From Burkholderiales bacterium (GTDB taxonomy: Bacteria > Pseudomonadota > Gammaproteobacteria > Burkholderiales > SG8-39): 16,023 nt of DNA. A program made the position numbers and the translations under genes. The stretch is taken from assembly GCA_029266935.1 (NCBI GenBank), contig JAQSVY010000073.1, positions 1 through 16,023 on the forward strand, given 5' to 3'. Positions 3,320 to 15,901 of the stretch are shown piece after piece (within the stretch, counting starts at the first letter, position 1; each line of letters starts with the position of its first letter). The notes beneath the pieces were generated by a model. It worked only from the letters and a program-made list of their open reading frames with translations, did not search any database and had not been told where the DNA came from.

Positions 3320-4906
<1,587 letters not shown>

Positions 4907-6079: not shown

Positions 6080-6158
6080 GAAAAGGGGTCAGAGCAATTT
6101 TCCGAGGCGGTGCTGCAGCTCACCGCTCACCTTCTGAAAATTGCTCTGACCCCTTCTC
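6080..6158. repeat. REP/REPIN-like inverted repeat, 20-bp perfect arms
   Basis: The left arm AAGGGGTCAGAGCAATTTTC (6083-6102) is the exact reverse complement of 6136-6155. With one mismatch the pairing extends to 6080-6102 against 6136-6158 (22 of 23). Inside the 33-base spacer a second stem pairs GCGGTG (6107-6112) with CACCGC (6121-6126). The GGGGTCAGAG core resembles extragenic palindromes that I recall as dispersed in proteobacterial genomes and mobilised by REP-associated tyrosine transposases. That link is from memory and is not shown here, since only one copy is in the window. It lies between two convergent genes and could also act as a bidirectional terminator or an mRNA-stabilising stem. 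The ntrC frame stops inside it (6120-6122). Confidence 0.85.
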
Positions 6159-7417
6159 TTCGATCCCCAGCTCCTGGATCTTGCGGGTGATGGTGTTGCG
6201 CCCCATCCCGAGCAGGTTTGCCGCCTCGATGCGCCGGCCGCCGGTCCGCGCGAGCGCGCGCGTGATCAGGGCGCGCTCGAACTGACGGGTGAGCGAGTCG
6301 AGGATGCCAGTCTCGCCGCGCGTGAGTCGCCGCTCGGCCTCTTGCTCGAGCCCCGCCAGCCAGTCGGAAGCCGCCCCGGCGGCCTGGCCGCGGAACTCCG
6401 CCGGCAGGTCGCCCACGTCGATCACCTGCCCGGGCGCCATCACGGTGAGCCAGTGGCAGAGGTTCTCGAGCTGGCGCACGTTGCCGGGAAACGGCAGGCG
6501 CGAGAGATGCGCGAGCGCGTCCTCGGCGAGGCGCTTGGGCTCGACGCCCAGCTGCTTTGCACTGGAAGCCAGGAAGTGCCTGGCGAGCAGGGGCACGTCC
6601 TCGGCGCGCTCGCGCAGGTTGGGCAGGCGCAGCCGGATCACGTTCAGGCGGTGGTAGAGGTCCTCGCGGAACGAGCCCTCGCGCACGCGCTGCTCGAGAT
6701 TGTGATGGGTGGCGGCGATCACGCGCACGTTGGCCTTGAGCTGCTGGTGCCCGCCGACGCGTGCTGCTGCGCGCCGGTGAAGGAGCCGCGCTCGTGGCCG
6801 AAAAGCTCAGACTCCAGCAGGTCCTTGGGCATCGCGGCGGTGTTGATGGCAATGAAGGGCTTCGCCGCGCGCGCACCGTGGCGGTGCAGCGCGCGCGCGA
6901 CCAGCTCCTTTCCGGTTCCCGACTCGCCGGTGATCAGCACCGTCGCGCTCGATTGCGAAAGCCGCCCGATGGCGCGGAACACCTCCTGCATCGCCGGCGC
7001 CTGCCCGAGCATTTCTTTTACTTCGATGTTGTTTTCCTTGACTTGCGTTTCTCGGCGGCGCTCCTCGAGGGCGCGGCGGATCAGGTCCACCGCCTGGTCG
7101 ATGTCGAAGGGCTTGGGCAGGTACTCGAAGGCGCCGCCCTGGAACGCCGCCACCGCCGAGTCCAGGTCGGAATAGGCGGTCATGACGATGACGGGAACGG
7201 CAGGGTCGCGCTCCTTCACCGCCTGCAGGAGCTCGAGGCCCGAGCGTCCGGGCATGCGAATGTCGGACACCAGCACCTCCGGCAAGCCGCCGGGAAGCGC
7301 GTCGATCGCCTCCTGCGCCGAAGCGAACGAGTCGAAGGCGATACCTTCTCGCGAAAGCGCCTTCTCGATCACCCAGCGGATCGAGCGGTCATCGTCGACG
7401 ATCCAGACCGGTTTCAT
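6120..7417 (-). pseudogene. ntrC: Nitrogen regulator NtrC, internally deleted and frameshifted
   Basis: Two overlapping frames together give NtrC minus its core. The first (7417 to 6719) holds an intact receiver domain (D9/D10, phosphoacceptor D52 in VSDIRMPG, T80, K102), then the sigma-54 activator domain with Walker A GESGTGKE (164-171) and the GSFTGAQ loop (211-217). It then runs out of frame to a stop. The second frame resumes at [19 protein letters not shown] (near 6758) and continues through the rest of the AAA+ domain to the Fis-type helix-turn-helix ([20 protein letters not shown]). About 40 residues expected between these points are absent, including the Walker B LFLDEIGDM segment. 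The stop of the second frame lies in the REP-like repeat and adds about ten foreign residues. ATGA overlap with ntrB. As written it cannot be a working sigma-54 activator; an assembly error remains possible. Confidence 0.88.
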
Positions 7418-8442
7418 ATGAGCGGCATCAGGATCCTGAATACGGTGCGGCCGGGGCGGGACTCGAACTCGATGACGCCCTGGTGATACTGGACGAACGT
7501 CTGCGCGAGCGAGAGTCCCAGGCCGGTGCCGCCCTCCCTCCCGGAAACGAGCGGATTGAAGATCCGGTCCTGGATCTCCTCCGCCACACCCGGGCCGTCG
7601 TCGACGACTTGCAATTCTAGTGCCAGCTTGTGGCGCTGCTTCAGGATGGTCACTTGCCGAAGCACTCGGGTTCTAAAAGTTATCTTTTTGCTTCCGGCCT
7701 GGGCAGCATTCCGCGCGATGTTGAGCACCGCCTGGATGAGCTGCTCACGGTCGCCGACAAGCTCGGGCAGGCTGGGGTCGTAATCGCGCTCGATGTCGGC
7801 ACCGAACTCGGCCTTGACCAGGCTTCTCACGCGCTCCAGCACCTCGTGCACGCTGAACGCCTCGAGGCGCGGCGCGCGGTGCGGCGTGAGCATGCGGTCC
7901 ATCAGCGTCTGCAGGCGGTCGGCTTCCTTGATGATCACCTGCGTGTACTCGCGCAGGTCGCCTCTTTTCAGTTCCTTTTCCAGGAGTTGTGCCGAACCGC
8001 GCAATCCCCCGAGGGGGTTCCTGATCTCGTGCGCGAGGTTGCGGATCAGCTCGCGGTTCGCCTGCTGCTCGAACTGCAGCCGGTCCTCGCGCGCCATGCG
8101 CAGCTGCTGCTCGAGGGGGCGCAGCTCCGCGAGCAGCGCCGCTTCCGGGAGGTCGATGCGCGTCACGACGCAGGCGAGCGGCAGCGGCTCGCGGCCCGGG
8201 CGCGTATAGGTCACGTTCCGCCCGGAGTAGTCCCAGTGGGTGGTGCGCGCTTCGGCCAGGGTCTGCTCGAGCTCCACCTGCTCGGAGAAGAGCGTCAGGA
8301 ACGCCTGTCCGATCAGGCTCTTCGCGCCGGTGGCAAGCAGGTTCTCCGCCGCGGGATTGGCATAGCGGACCACCAGCTCATCGTCGAGCGCCACCACCGC
8401 CGTGGGCAGCAGGTCCAGGCCTGAGAACGAGGCATTCGCCAT
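7414..8442 (-). CDS. ntrB: Nitrogen regulation sensor histidine kinase NtrB
   Basis: The 342-residue protein has no membrane segment, as expected for the cytosolic kinase that senses nitrogen status through PII and phosphorylates NtrC. Domains in order: PAS (about 5-100), dimerisation/phosphoacceptor helix with H138 in [20 protein letters not shown], and a GHKL ATPase domain with the N box [19 protein letters not shown] and [10 protein letters not shown]. All key boxes are present and the length is normal. The TGA overlaps the ntrC ATG by 4 bp, so the two are translationally coupled. It starts 18 bp after the DUF4124 gene. Its cognate regulator in this assembly is broken while the kinase itself shows no damage. 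Two lysine-rich stretches (7664-7695, 7967-7990) use AT-rich codons. Confidence 0.95.
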
Positions 8443-8971: not shown

Positions 8972-8981
8972 TTCTTAAGAA
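8972..8981. repeat. Palindrome at the glnA stop codon
   Basis: TTCTTAAGAA is a perfect 10-bp palindrome containing the glnA stop. It is flanked by GCG (8968-8970) and GCG (8982-8984), and the octamer AGAAGCGT recurs at 8964-8971 and 8979-8986. There is no U-run, so it does not look like an intrinsic terminator. It could moderately reduce read-through into the DUF4124–ntrBC genes. Confidence 0.4.
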
Positions 8982-10390
8982 GCGTAGTACATGTCGAACT
9001 CGACCGGGTGCGTGGTCATGCGGAAGCGGGTGAGCTCCTCTTCCTTGAGCGCGATGTAGGACTCGAGGAAGTCGTCGGAGAACACGCCGCCGCGCGTGAG
9101 GAACGCGCGGTCGTCCTGCAGGCAGCCGAGCGCCTCTTCCAGCGAGGCGCAGACGTTGGGCACCTTCTTCGCCTCTTCCGGGGGCAGGTCATAAAGGTTC
9201 TTGTCGATCGGGTCGCCGGGGTTGGTCTTGTTCTGCACGCCGTCCAGCCCCGCCATCAGCATCGCCGCGAAGGCGAGATAAGCATTGGCGGTCGGATCGG
9301 GGAAGCGTACCTCGACGCGCCGGCCGTTCGGGCTGTTGACGAACGGGATGCGGCAGGCGGCGGAGCGGTTGCGCGCGGAATAGGCGAGATTGATCGGCGC
9401 TTCGAATCCGGGCACCAAGCGCTTGTAGGAGTTCGTGCCGGGGTTGGTGATGGCGTTGAGCGCCTTCGCGTGCTTGATGATGCCGCCGATGTAGTGCAGC
9501 GCGAACTCCGACAGGCCGGAGTAGCCGTTGCCGGCGAAGAGGTTCTTGCCGCCCTTCCACACCGACTGGTGGCAGTGCATGCCAGAGCCGTTGTCGCCCA
9601 CCACGGGCTTGGGCATGAAGGTCGCGGTCTTGCCGTAGGAATGCGCGACGTTCCACACCGTGTACTTGAGAATCTGCATCCAGTCGGCGCGCTGCACGAG
9701 CGGGGCGAAGCGCGTGCCGATCTCGCATTGCCCGGCGGCCGCCACCTCGTGGTGGTGCACCTCGCACTCGACGCCCTGCTGCTCGAGCGCGAGCACCATG
9801 GCATTGCGGATGTCGTTCAGCGTGTCGATCGGCGGCACCGGGAAGTAGCCGCCTTTGACCGGCGCGCGGTGACCCATGTTGCCCGACTCGTAGTCGATGC
9901 CGGCGGACCAGGGGGCTTCTTCGGACTTGATCTTCACGAAGCAACCCGACATGTCGACGTTCCAGGTGACGCCGTCGAAGATGAAGAACTCGGGCTCGGG
10001 CCCGAAGTAGGCGACCTCGCCCAGCCCGGTCGACTTGAGGTAGGCCTCGGCGCGCTTGGCGATCGAGCGCGGGTCGCGGTCGTAGGGCTTGTGGTCGATC
10101 GGGTCGTAGACGTCGCAGCTGAGGTTGAGCACCGGCTCGTCGGTGAAGGGATCCATGCGCGCCGAGGCGGCGTCTGGCATGAGCAGCATGTCGGACGCCT
10201 GGATGCCTTTCCAGCCGGCGATCGAGGAGCCGTCGAAGGCGTGGCCCGATTCGAACTTGTCCTTGTCGAAGTACCTGATCGGCACCGTCACGTGCTGCTC
10301 CTTGCCGCGCGTGTCGGTGAACCGGAGATCGACGAACTTCACCTCCTTGTCTTTGATGAGCTTCAGGACGTCATCGGGCGTCGTCGCCAT
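8975..10390 (-). CDS. glnA: Glutamine synthetase type I
   Basis: The 471-residue enzyme makes glutamine from glutamate, ammonia and ATP, and is the main entry point for ammonia. Characteristic segments are [24 protein letters not shown] with the metal-binding Glu, [31 protein letters not shown] and NRSAACRIP. The adenylylation tyrosine is Y400 in [10 protein letters not shown], so activity control by GlnE is expected. The start is the ATG at 10390, which gives the standard [12 protein letters not shown] beginning and has a good ribosome-binding site (GGAGA at 10398-10402, 7-base spacer). An in-frame ATG at 10459 would add 23 unrelated residues and cover the promoter. A sigma-54-type promoter and an NtrC-like site lie upstream. 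Its TAA sits in a small palindrome (8972-8981). Confidence 0.98.
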
Positions 10391-10436
10391 TCGGGAATCT
10401 CCGCTGAGTTGGTCTAGGTGTAGTAGCGCCGGGGGA

Positions 10437-10451
10437 GCATGTTCCATGCCA
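10437..10451 (-). promoter_or_regulatory. Candidate sigma-54 promoter of glnA
   Basis: The minus strand reads TGGCATGGAACATGC. GG and GC are exactly 10 bases apart, as in the sigma-54 consensus TGGCAC-N5-TTGC, with two mismatches outside those pairs. The predicted transcript would start near 10425 and leave a leader of about 35 bases before the glnA ATG. Confidence 0.7.
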
Positions 10452-10492
10452 CGCGCCATGCCCCGTACCGGCGCATTCTAGCCGGAGAGATA

Positions 10493-10509
10493 TGCACCGA
10501 ATAGGGGCG
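10493..10509 (-). promoter_or_regulatory. Candidate NtrC-binding site upstream of glnA
   Basis: TGCACC-N5-GGGGCG resembles the NtrC consensus TGCACC-N5-GGTGCA: the left half is perfect and the right half matches in four of six bases. It lies about 70-80 bp upstream of the predicted glnA start. A perfect GGTGCA half-site is present at 10512-10517 but at the wrong spacing for a single classical site. Confidence 0.4.
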
Positions 10510-10531
10510 CCGGTGCACGGCGGCGCACTCC

Positions 10532-10537
10532 TATAAT
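10532..10537 (+). promoter_or_regulatory. TATAAT -10-like box before the rhodanese gene
   Basis: An exact TATAAT stands 13 bases before the rhodanese ATG. No convincing -35 box lies 16-18 bases upstream. If used, transcription would begin around 10544, at the end of the ribosome-binding GAGGG, giving a nearly leaderless message. Confidence 0.35.
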
Positions 10538-10550
10538 GCGAGGGCAACCG

Positions 10551-10988
10551 ATGGACGAAATCAGGAAGCGGGCCGCCGAGCGCGCCCGCGCAATGGGCCT
10601 TACCTACGCTGGCGCGCTCCTGCCCGCCGAAGCCGGCGAGCTGATGAAGGCCGGGGGCTGGCTGGTCGACGTGCGCACCAAGCCGGAGCTCGCCTACGTC
10701 GGCCGCATCCCGGGCGCGGCTGCGGTCGAGTGGCAAACCTGGCCGGACGGCCGCCCGAACCCCGCGTTTCTCGCCGAGCTCGCCGCGCTGGTGCCCAGGG
10801 ACGAGCCGGTCATGTTCATCTGCCGCTCCGGCGCTCGCTCGCATTCGGCGGCGCAAGCCGCGACCCAGGCAGGCTGGCGTGAGGCCTACAACGTCCTCGA
10901 AGGCTTCGAAGGTGACAAGGACGCGGCGCAGCACCGCGGCACCGTAGGCGGCTGGAAGAAGGCCTGCCTGCCCTGGATCCAGAGTTGA
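10551..10988 (+). CDS. Single-domain rhodanese (sulfurtransferase-like)
   Basis: The 145-residue protein has one rhodanese domain. A helical lead (1-30) is followed by WLVDVRTKPELAYVGRIPGAAAVEW, typical of the first half of the fold, and by the active-site loop FICRSGARS with the persulfide cysteine C91. A C-terminal helix with the NVLEGFEGD motif completes it. It has no signal peptide and is probably cytoplasmic. The sulfur donor and acceptor are unknown. The ATG at 10551 is preferred over the one at 10536 because GAGGG (10540-10544) precedes it at a suitable distance; the upstream start would add five residues. It is divergent from glnA and converges on uppP with only 7 bp between the stops. 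Confidence 0.88.
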   Translation: MDEIRKRAAERARAMGLTYAGALLPAEAGELMKAGGWLVDVRTKPELAYVGRIPGAAAVEWQTWPDGRPNPAFLAELAALVPRDEPVMFICRSGARSHSAAQAATQAGWREAYNVLEGFEGDKDAAQHRGTVGGWKKACLPWIQS

Positions 10989-12604: not shown

Positions 12605-14662
12605 CTAGCTGCCCGGATGCGGCGCCGGGCGGCCGAGGGCCTGACCGACCGCCTCGACGACGCGGCTGCGCGAGTCGTTCTTCAGCAGCCAGTCGACGAT
12701 GCCGTGTCGCTGCGGCTCCGGCACGCCGGCCCGATCGGTGCGCAGGCCGGCGAGCATGATGATGCGCGTGCCCTCGAGCCGCTCGCGCATCTCCGCGATC
12801 AGCGCAAGGGGATCCTCGGCGTCGCGCAGCCGGCGCGAGAGGAGCCACGCGGCATACTTCCAGCGCCCGAGCAGCGTGCGCGAAGCTGCGGCGTCGGCGA
12901 CGGTGTCGACGCGGTAGCCCGCCTTCTCCAGCACCATGAAGATGGTGCCGCCGCCTTCGCGGTCCTCGAAGCCGACGCGGCCCTGCATCATCTCGATCAG
13001 GCGCTTGGAGATCGCTAGCCCCAGGCCGGTGCCGCCCTTGATGCGCGAATCTGTCGAGTCGGCCTGCGCGAAGCGGCCAAAGATGCGGTTGCGAAAGGCC
13101 TCCGGAATGCCCGGGCCGCGGTCGGCGACGCCCACGCGCACCATGCCCTCTCCGAGCGTGACGCTCACGTCGACGGAGCCGCTGGGCGGCGAGAACTTGG
13201 CGGCGTTCGAGAGCAGGTTCGTCATCACCTGCATCAGGCGCTTGCGATCGGCACGCACCGTGACCGGCGGCACGCTGCCCCGCATCTCCTCCGCCAGCGC
13301 CAGGCGCACGTGGAAGCGGTCGGCGAAGCCCTGGTTCAGGCGCACGGACTCGCGCAGCAGCTCGTCCAGCTCGATCGGCTCGGGCTCGAGCGAGAGGCGT
13401 CCGGACTCGATCTTCTCGATGTCGAGCACCTCGTTGATCAAGTCGAGCAGGCGCTTGCCGTTCCTCTCGGCGATCTCGACGATCTCATCCTGCTCCTTGG
13501 GCACGTCGCCGAGCGCGCCGCTGCGCAGCAGCGAAAGCGAGCCGAGGATCGAGGTGAGCGGCGTGCGCAGCTCATGGCTGAGGGTCGAGGTGAACTCGCT
13601 CCTCACCCGCTCGGCCGCGCGCTGCTGGGTGATATCGCGGCCTTGCAGCACGATCGAGCTGACCTGGCCCTCATCGTTGACGAGCGGGGTCATGGTCCAT
13701 TCGCAGGCGAGCGCCAGGCCATCGCGCCGCATGCAGTTTTCCGCCACCAGAGTCGCCGGCTTGCCGGCGGCGATGAATTCGGCCCACCACGCCTCGGTGC
13801 GGCTGCGATCGTCGCCGGCGAGCAGCATGGTGATGATGTTGCGCCCGACCATCTCGGGGGAGGCATAGCCGAACAGGTTCTGCGCTGCCGGATTCATGTC
13901 GAGGATCGTGGCACGCGGGTCGACCTCGAATACCGCGATCGGCGCGCGCTCGGAGAACAGCGACAGCTTGCGGCCGTACGCCTGCACCTCGCGGTGCGCG
14001 TCGAGCAGGCTGTCGAGCTGCTCGCCGAGCTGGGCCTGGATCTCGGCGTTGTCGCTCGAGAGGCGCCGGTAGGCCCCGCGCAGCCCGAACGCGCTGGCGA
14101 ACACCCGGCCGAGCTCGTAGGCGGTAAGCACGTTGGCGATGAAAAGCAGCGGCATTGCCGCACCGAGGAGCCGGAAGAGCTCGGTGCCGTAGGCGAAGAG
14201 CACGACGTTGAAGGGCAGCATGACCCCCGCGGCATAGAGCGCATACACCCACCACACCGTAGAGAAGAGCGGCAGCGCCCCCACGGTGACCACCGCGACC
14301 ATGAAGGCGATGAACACCTGCTCCTCCGGCGCGCCGGGGAAGAACACCGCCGCGGCGAAGCCCCAGCCGGCGCCCAGGGCGGCCGCGCCGAAGCCGGCGC
14401 GACGGATCCACAGGGCTGGCTTCTTGCGCGCCGCCGCAACGCGCTTGTACGCGAGCGACAGCGCCCACAGCGCTGCCGCGAGCCCGAGGATCAAGACCTG
14501 CCAGAAAGCAATCAGCTCGAGCGGCCGCGAGCGCCAGAGAAAGGCCGAGAGCAGCAGGCTCAGGACGGCAGTGGCGGCGACGCCGGGGGCGATCCGGCGG
14601 TAGATGAAGTCGCAGCGCTCGCGCGCGACCTCCGGCACCTGGGTCTCGTCCGGGGCTTTCAT
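12605..14662 (-). CDS. Membrane PAS histidine kinase with truncated, degenerate receiver
   Basis: The 685-residue protein starts with about six hydrophobic segments between residues 25 and 182. A coiled linker leads to a PAS domain (about 233-345). The phosphoacceptor helix has H363 in STLSHELRTPLTSILGSLSLL. The ATPase domain has TNLLSNAAKF, DRGPGIPEAF and GTGLGLAISKRLIEMM. The domain then stops abruptly at GGTIF (572-576) and is joined to what looks like the middle of a receiver domain (VLEKAGYRVDTVADAAASRTLL). The first strand and its acidic pocket are missing, and Ser609 stands where the phosphorylated Asp would be (YAAWLLSRRLRDAED). This looks like an in-frame internal deletion. Autophosphorylation may survive, but phosphotransfer to its own receiver cannot. 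The signal and partner are unknown. It is first in a probable operon with the hydrolase and uppP. Confidence 0.88.
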   Translation of the reverse strand: MKAPDETQVPEVARERCDFIYRRIAPGVAATAVLSLLLSAFLWRSRPLELIAFWQVLILGLAAALWALSLAYKRVAAARKKPALWIRRAGFGAAALGAGWGFAAAVFFPGAPEEQVFIAFMVAVVTVGALPLFSTVWWVYALYAAGVMLPFNVVLFAYGTELFRLLGAAMPLLFIANVLTAYELGRVFASAFGLRGAYRRLSSDNAEIQAQLGEQLDSLLDAHREVQAYGRKLSLFSERAPIAVFEVDPRATILDMNPAAQNLFGYASPEMVGRNIITMLLAGDDRSRTEAWWAEFIAAGKPATLVAENCMRRDGLALACEWTMTPLVNDEGQVSSIVLQGRDITQQRAAERVRSEFTSTLSHELRTPLTSILGSLSLLRSGALGDVPKEQDEIVEIAERNGKRLLDLINEVLDIEKIESGRLSLEPEPIELDELLRESVRLNQGFADRFHVRLALAEEMRGSVPPVTVRADRKRLMQVMTNLLSNAAKFSPPSGSVDVSVTLGEGMVRVGVADRGPGIPEAFRNRIFGRFAQADSTDSRIKGGTGLGLAISKRLIEMMQGRVGFEDREGGGTIFMVLEKAGYRVDTVADAAASRTLLGRWKYAAWLLSRRLRDAEDPLALIAEMRERLEGTRIIMLAGLRTDRAGVPEPQRHGIVDWLLKNDSRSRVVEAVGQALGRPAPHPGS
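12931..12948. repeat. Perfect 7-bp hairpin at the kinase domain junction
   Basis: GCACCATGAAGATGGTGC is a perfect inverted repeat, with GCACCAT (12931-12937) and ATGGTGC (12942-12948) around a GAAG loop. It falls inside the coding sequence exactly where the ATPase domain gives way to the receiver remnant (codons for GTIFMVL). Confidence 0.7.
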
Positions 14663-14680: not shown

Positions 14681-15901
14681 ATGCGAAAGACGGTACCCGT
14701 CGAGGAGCTGCAGTTCGGCATGTACGTGGCCGAGCTGGACCGGCCGTGGACCGACACGCCGTTCCGCTTCCAGGGTTTCGTGCTGCAGACTCCCGAGCAG
14801 CTCGAGACGCTGAAGAAGTACTGCAAGCAAGTGCAGGTCGACCCGGCCAAGGCCGAGACCATCGCGCAGCTGGTCGACCCGGCCATCGGCACCGGCGCGA
14901 TGAAAAGCGCGCTTGATCTCTCGCGCACCGGCAAGGTGAAATACATCGAGCAGGCGCCGGTCGAGGAGGAGCTTCGCCGCGCCATGGCCGTGCACCTCAA
15001 GGGCAAGAAGGCGGTCCAGGAAATCCTCATCGCGCTGCGCGCCGGCAAGATGCTGGACGCCCAGAGCGTGACCGAGGCAATCACCGGCCTCATCGAGAGC
15101 GTGCTGCGCAATCCTGACGCCATGCTGCTCTACACGCAGCTGCAGCAAAAGGGCGACTACACCCAGTCGCACGCGCTCGACGTCTCGGTGTACATGACCG
15201 CGTTCGGCCGCTTTCTCGAGATGTCGCGCGAGGACGTGGTGCTGCTCGGGCACGTCGGCCTGCTGCAGGACGTCGGCAAGGTGCGCCTGCCCAACAGGCT
15301 GATCGAGAAGCGCGACCGGCTCAGCGTCGAGGAGTTCGAGCTGGCGAAGAAGCACGTCGAGTACTCGGCCGAGATTCTGCGGGAGACCGCGGGCCTGCCG
15401 GCGCAGCTCCCCGAGCTCGCGCTGCTGCACCACGAGCGCCACGACGGCAGCGGCTATCCGAACAAGCTGCGCAGCAAGGAGATCGGCCTGATCGGCTCGA
15501 TCGGGGCCATCGTCGACACCTTCGATGCGCTCACGGCGCGCCGGCCTTACGCCGCGCCGGTGGCGCCCTCGACCGCGCTCAGCATGCTGTACAAGTGGCG
15601 CGGCACCTTCTTCGATCCGTTCCTGGTGGAGCAGTTCATCCGCTGCATCGGCATCTTCCCGATCGGCAGCACGGTGGAGCTCAACAGCGGCGAGTCGGGC
15701 ATCGTCATCGCGCAGAACCTGGAGAAGCGCCTGCAGCCTCGCGTCATGGTGATCCGCGACGCAGCCGGCAACCCGCTCAAGCCGCAGAAGCTGATCGACC
15801 TTTCGCGCGGCCTGAAGATCGCGAGCGGCGAGCCTTACCGCATCAAGCGCACGCTCGAGTACGGGCGCATCCCGATGAGCGCGGAGGCCCTCTTCCTTTA
15901 G
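14681..15901 (+). CDS. DUF3391/HD-GYP domain protein with altered HD motif
   Basis: The 406-residue product has an N-terminal DUF3391 region (about 1-130, [23 protein letters not shown]) and an HD-GYP domain (about 145-330), followed by a C-terminal extension ([22 protein letters not shown]). HD-GYP enzymes usually hydrolyse cyclic di-GMP. The HHExxDGSGYP signature (250-260) and H164 and H225 are present. The HD pair itself reads QD (Q196-D197, LLQDVGK), so one metal-ligand His is lost. Catalysis may be weak or absent. The ATG at 14681 is preferred. The frame is open far upstream to 13310, but only as an antisense run over the kinase gene. It diverges from that kinase with just 18 bp between the starts, and its stop overlaps the stop of thiC. 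Confidence 0.88.

Follow-up and report, generated by a model that had tools for sequence, protein, structure and literature searches.

A blunt 118-base loss in ntrC of a draft genome, with a probable origin in local assembly error

In the contig examined here, the gene for NtrC is split over two reading frames and lacks its Walker B block, beside ntrB and glnA genes that look intact. This raises the question of whether nitrogen control has been abandoned in this organism, as a first-pass annotation of the sequence implied, or whether the gene is whole in the organism and broken only in its assembly. The stretch of DNA that was analysed (the window) makes up all of contig C17 (16,023 bases) in draft G000, which consists of 2,188,172 bases in 375 contigs and has a completeness of 56.5%. 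Sixty relatives were searched, of which 59 gave some match to the ntrC region (several of them weak matches only), and the loci of 24 were aligned; the window was also compared with nine contigs, or pieces of contigs, from relatives.

Structure of the broken ntrC gene and its neighborhood

The ntrC gene lies on the minus strand from 7417 to 6120. Its first part (6762..7417, minus strand) encodes a receiver domain with its phospho-acceptor Asp (PF00072, 95.3 bits, residues 4-113), the Walker A motif GESGTGKE, and GSFTGAQQ, whose GSFTGAQ is the GAFTGA-type loop. Past the junction, the open reading frame list shows this frame continuing as an out-of-frame tail of 14 residues and a stop (6719..6761, minus strand), the entire frame from 7417 to 6719 encoding 232 amino acids. 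The second part (6120..6758, minus strand) encodes, in another frame, the rest of the AAA+ domain, the lid (PF25601, 93.6 bits) and the Fis-type helix-turn-helix (PF02954, 51.3 bits). The Walker B motif LFLDEIGDM is found in neither part. TIGR01818 (ntrC) is the top NCBIfam match for both parts and matches at positions 1-220 in the first and 250-463 in the second, and PF00158 matches at positions 2-86 and 115-167, respectively. The gene resembles NtrC/NR(I) (TIGR01818, NF008176) in lying beside ntrB and glnA in the order seen in relatives, with collinear matches, but differs in that 118 bases including Walker B are gone, the frame is changed and both parts score below the curated NR(I) cut-off (335.1 and 245.2 versus 558.6 bits).

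The junction is located at 6761..6762 (minus strand) and shows no microhomology, on which ground slippage between direct repeats was rejected. The missing block is present in all 24 aligned relatives and appears as one clean gap, and the figure of 118 bases is an ungapped fit against G002, G009, G001 and G003. Since 118 leaves a remainder of one when divided by three, the loss accounts for the frame change. The first-pass annotation had proposed that Walker B was lost and the frame changed at the same spot, and both proposals are confirmed by the alignment with ntrC of relatives that it had called for; its estimate of the missing length, about 40 residues or 120 to 135 bases, can be sharpened to 118 bases at 6761/6762. 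A search for a second ntrC, also proposed there, found none at the NR(I) family cut-off by profile search of the draft, which says little about a missing intact copy given that the draft is 56.5% complete. The gene rpoN was found in the draft (PF04552).

Both neighbors look intact, in agreement with the earlier reading. The ntrB gene, encoding NR(II) (7414..8442, minus strand), scores 334.8 bits with NF008293 against a curated cut-off of 240, and glnA (8975..10390, minus strand), starting at the ATG of MATTPDDV, scores 654.9 bits with TIGR00653 against a cut-off of 429. Upstream of glnA lies a sigma-54-type -24/-12 element, TGGCATGGAACATGC (10437..10451, minus strand), which fits the full sigma-54 consensus only moderately well and was missed at two mismatches. 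Near its position we read TGGCA-N7-TGC in five and AGGCA-N7-TGC in one of the seven relatives tried, the seventh giving no reading. As the element is kept in relatives, the earlier remark that the glnA promoter looks intact holds.

Near-identical intact proteins and a second junction in the contig

In the protein collection, the truncated NtrC is a single sequence (P0121), from the 16,023-base contig, and its out-of-frame tail occurs in no other of the 120 matches listed of 7,998; both observations count for an assembly error. In the 120 listed full-length NtrC relatives, from 8,000 scored, LFLDEIGDM is present without exception and GESGTGKE in 119. Three intact proteins are nearly identical to the window NtrC on both sides of the break: P0073 (100% over 218 residues and 97.2% over 212 residues), P0079 (99.5% and 97.6%) and P0089 (99.1% and 98.6%). 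A 10-residue ending is common to these three and seven more proteins, that is, to 10 of the 120 listed relatives. The contigs encoding the near-identical intact proteins, both NtrC and the kinase described below, are not known to share the window's sample.

A second blunt junction was found in the same contig, in a gene for a hybrid histidine kinase without the start of its receiver (12605..14662, minus strand), recognized by family matches and comparison with relatives. At 12937..12938 (minus strand), 102 bases corresponding to 34 residues are missing in frame, a loss seen against G002 and G001, whose matches span both sides, and fitted to the base against G002. Identities to the near-identical intact kinase P0254 are 99.65% and 100% on either side of the junction, where P0254 has the 34 residues that the window lacks, and all 120 listed kinase relatives, out of 3,557 found, have 32 to 35 residues at the gap. 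Out of 588 contig loci encoding a relative, the best 80, kept as best matches, all match over nearly their full length. That this 16 kb contig contains two blunt losses again counts for an assembly error. The G002 kinase is recorded as that of Betaproteobacteria bacterium RIFCSPLOWO2_12_FULL_68_19, and names of this type presumably belong to the data set of PMC5079060.

Blunt losses across the draft and the origin of the break

The draft, represented by 63 pieces (481,725 bases), was set against its nearest relative, G002, represented by 61 pieces (759,754 bases), which gave 92,231 aligned bases; G002 is the only genome compared with the draft at this scale. Clean one-sided absences of at least 40 bases numbered seven in the draft and zero in G002. 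One of the seven, at window position 15894 (76 bases), was dropped as a loss from the draft, because the relative holds there an inverted repeat found only in G002; this repeat, AAAATCAGGGACAG and its complement, lies at about 12,884-12,959 of L034, and its site is empty in the window. The remaining asymmetry of six versus zero has a two-sided probability of 0.03, which is modest taken alone, as the events are few. Ten further unequal gaps between the two genomes were left uncounted; the draft side is shorter than 20 letters in three of them (window 10983, L152 4779 and L158 3134), while a different one (L065 5973) has a relative's side of 9. Four one-sided absences are also seen in other relatives (G009 603 and G003 1345 against the window; G009 86 and G003 89 against G002).

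The window's own losses in ntrC and the kinase are among the six, and six further contigs also carry blunt losses, which range from about 90 to 490 bases. On C190, 489 bases are missing from a transglycosylase-like gene, where the alignment is not clean and gave no base fit, and 169 bases are missing in or beside a lysine-rich low-complexity stretch. A sucD gene lacks 181 bases with a change of frame (L055 on C222, position 6260), and the draft holds no other SucD-like match above 29% identity. A dusB gene lacks 93 bases (L148 on C19, position 2993), corresponding to 31 residues including GADGVMIGRAAQGRPW. The names sucD, dusB and transglycosylase are our own reading of the sequences by eye and thus putative. 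Two NtrC-type regulators, which match TIGR01818 and PF00158 in pieces, lack 150 bases (L044 on C290, about position 3753) and 294 and 123 bases (L045 on C130, about positions 1185 and 940), all multiples of three. Finally, 143 bases are missing on C185, where G002 has one open frame; a recent tandem duplication on this contig was considered and rejected, as the two copies are 71% alike.

Small frameshifts are even between the genomes, one in the draft and one in G002 (74 and 75 genes, respectively), which leads us to reject general genome decay. The same table contains four long gaps (at least 15 residues or at least 40 bases) in the draft and one in G002 (22 residues, in frame); sucD is absent from its results, and its stops were not used because the frames run from stop to stop. 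In a smaller set, gaps of at least 20 bases within alignments number three in the draft and two in G002.

Given that conserved genes including sucD are hit, that there is no matching excess of small frameshifts and that intact copies exist, local assembly errors offer the best explanation of these losses. For ntrC in particular, the similar clean gaps in other conserved genes of the draft and the near-identical intact copies elsewhere make an assembly mistake the most likely cause of the break, and on this comparative evidence we hold it to be very probably a local assembly error. The two flanks of an ordinary ntrC would each have been assembled correctly and then joined end to end over 118 unassembled bases, and such a join would yield a contig without the Walker B block and with a changed frame. 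The join would have arisen in assembly or scaffolding, with an assembler error, a scaffold gap that was closed or stripped of its Ns, or some other event as candidates. Counting against this, no runs of N were seen in the draft pieces checked, so that there is no direct sign of scaffold gaps. In the living organism, NtrC is most likely normal.

PMC7111523 and the methods of PMC5079060 describe local assembly errors in drafts that damage genes, and the former states that such errors, when uncorrected, lead to incomplete or incorrect gene sequences. The errors described for metagenome drafts are short faulty stretches at joins, as here; they were found there through read support, whereas here the error is inferred from sequence comparison.

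The details of the junctions point in both directions. Where a junction was fitted, microhomology amounts to 0 to 2 bases, the exception being the second C130 site (b) at 3 to 10; for the first C130 site (a) and for C185, one of three relatives passed the fit. We counted the near absence of microhomology in favor of an assembly error. However, an assembler normally needs shared letters, so an overlap-free junction could also mean that some read spans the join, which counts against an error, and assemblers more commonly err in other ways than by joining without overlap. Further observations also count against an assembly error. Of the nine losses that fall in open frames, six have a length divisible by three (102, 93, 489, 150, 294 and 123, versus 118, 181 and 143), a mild excess with a tail probability of 0.042 against an expectation of one third, or 0.077 for six of ten when the 169-base case is included. 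The losses are also spread unevenly, with a single one in 18.8 kb of C222 and none over 15.9 kb of C145. On the latter contig, about 1.2 kb present in the draft (L164, about 9,330-10,570) has no counterpart at this position in G007, G001 or G009.

Among the alternatives, the one that survives best is a real deletion in the sampled strain, in which a recent blunt loss of 118 bases inactivated ntrC and left ntrB and the glnA promoter without an activator. The absence of the 118 bases is directly visible in the letters, both flanks are otherwise open, as they would be after a very recent loss, and the in-frame share of the losses fits this explanation as well. The substitutions in ntrC were examined in this context, in a count made without relative G007. 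Changes found only in the window are non-synonymous more often than those found only in G002 (21 of 40 versus 7 of 28, p 0.027), a contrast that is not seen in five other genes (p 0.36), and this excess could hint at relaxed constraint. When window-only changes in ntrC are set against those in the five other genes (19 synonymous and 21 non-synonymous versus 107 and 83), however, the difference is not significant (p 0.38), and we regard relaxed selection on ntrC as unsupported. Moreover, the first part of the intact P0073 differs from the window's at no residue, indicating that these changes did not arise through the break. A real deletion would also require many independent deletions in one genome, sucD among them, without an excess of small frameshifts, and near-identical intact NtrC and kinase proteins exist. 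We therefore consider it unlikely.

It is more doubtful still that the deletions are real throughout. A free-living betaproteobacterium population would then be losing blunt segments of about 90 to 490 bases in a burst, many in frame, with catalytic segments removed from three sigma-54 activators and from other conserved genes and the flanks left clean. A mixture of strains, or a chimera, in which a minority variant or chimeric molecule carrying the deletions was assembled and the dominant population is intact, could draw on the presence of related strains suggested by the near-identical yet different P0073, P0079 and P0089; on its own it would leave the losses in unrelated genes on seven contigs unexplained, the window's NtrC tail is found in none of the listed matches apart from its own, and we regard this explanation as highly improbable. 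Rescue of the gene, by frameshifting into one product or by two cooperating polypeptides, can be dismissed almost entirely, since, despite both parts being open reading frames, the block with LFLDEIGDM is in neither frame and switching frames cannot supply it, so that programmed frameshifting and split-protein function are both rejected and the earlier statement that frameshifting could not rescue ntrC stands.

The local assembly error thus remains our preferred explanation, and it is likelier than an abandonment of nitrogen control, for which we find no support in view of the comparable blunt losses throughout the draft and the near-identical intact NtrC and kinase elsewhere; the first-pass annotation had itself named an assembly error as what would refute its reading. 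As biology, the break is probably of no consequence, since the organism most likely has the whole gene. The draft does call for caution: it has several clean gene-breaking joins, and read support is therefore needed before gene loss or an odd domain architecture is claimed from it.

A putative sigma-54 site within ntrB

YTGGCACN5TTGCW is matched exactly only once in the window, within ntrB at 7610-7626 on the minus strand (CTGGCACTAGAATTGCA), about 190 to 210 bases upstream of ntrC. We surveyed 113 ntrB loci, from which 99 distinct sequences were readable. The pattern [CT]TGGCA[CTA]N5TTGC is present in 36 of these, including all 14 closest to the window; the 63 without it are mostly more distant. 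The site is coded by otherwise uncommon codons (CTG GCA CTA/TTA GAA TTG), and third-position GC is 0.53, 0.74 and 0.45 at three of its codons, compared with values between 0.77 and 0.95 over the 12 preceding codons, although it is also low at some codons after the site (0.61 and 0.49). If synonymous codons are drawn at the usage of the locus itself, they match with a probability of 0.0002 to 0.005 in each of ten genomes of the genus, the window's included; as these genomes are related, the individual probabilities must not be multiplied. Taken together, the pattern suggests a predicted internal sigma-54 promoter for ntrC in many Betaproteobacteria. A limited literature search found no report of such a site within ntrB, which by no means proves that none has been described.

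At the opposite end of ntrC, a palindromic repeat formed by GGGGTCAGAGCAATTTTC and its complement, different from the inverted repeat of G002, is present at window positions 6085-6153, where it overlaps the 3' end of the gene and encodes part of its last residues. Against none for a reversed-pattern control, the repeat has 17 matches in the draft at no more than one mismatch.
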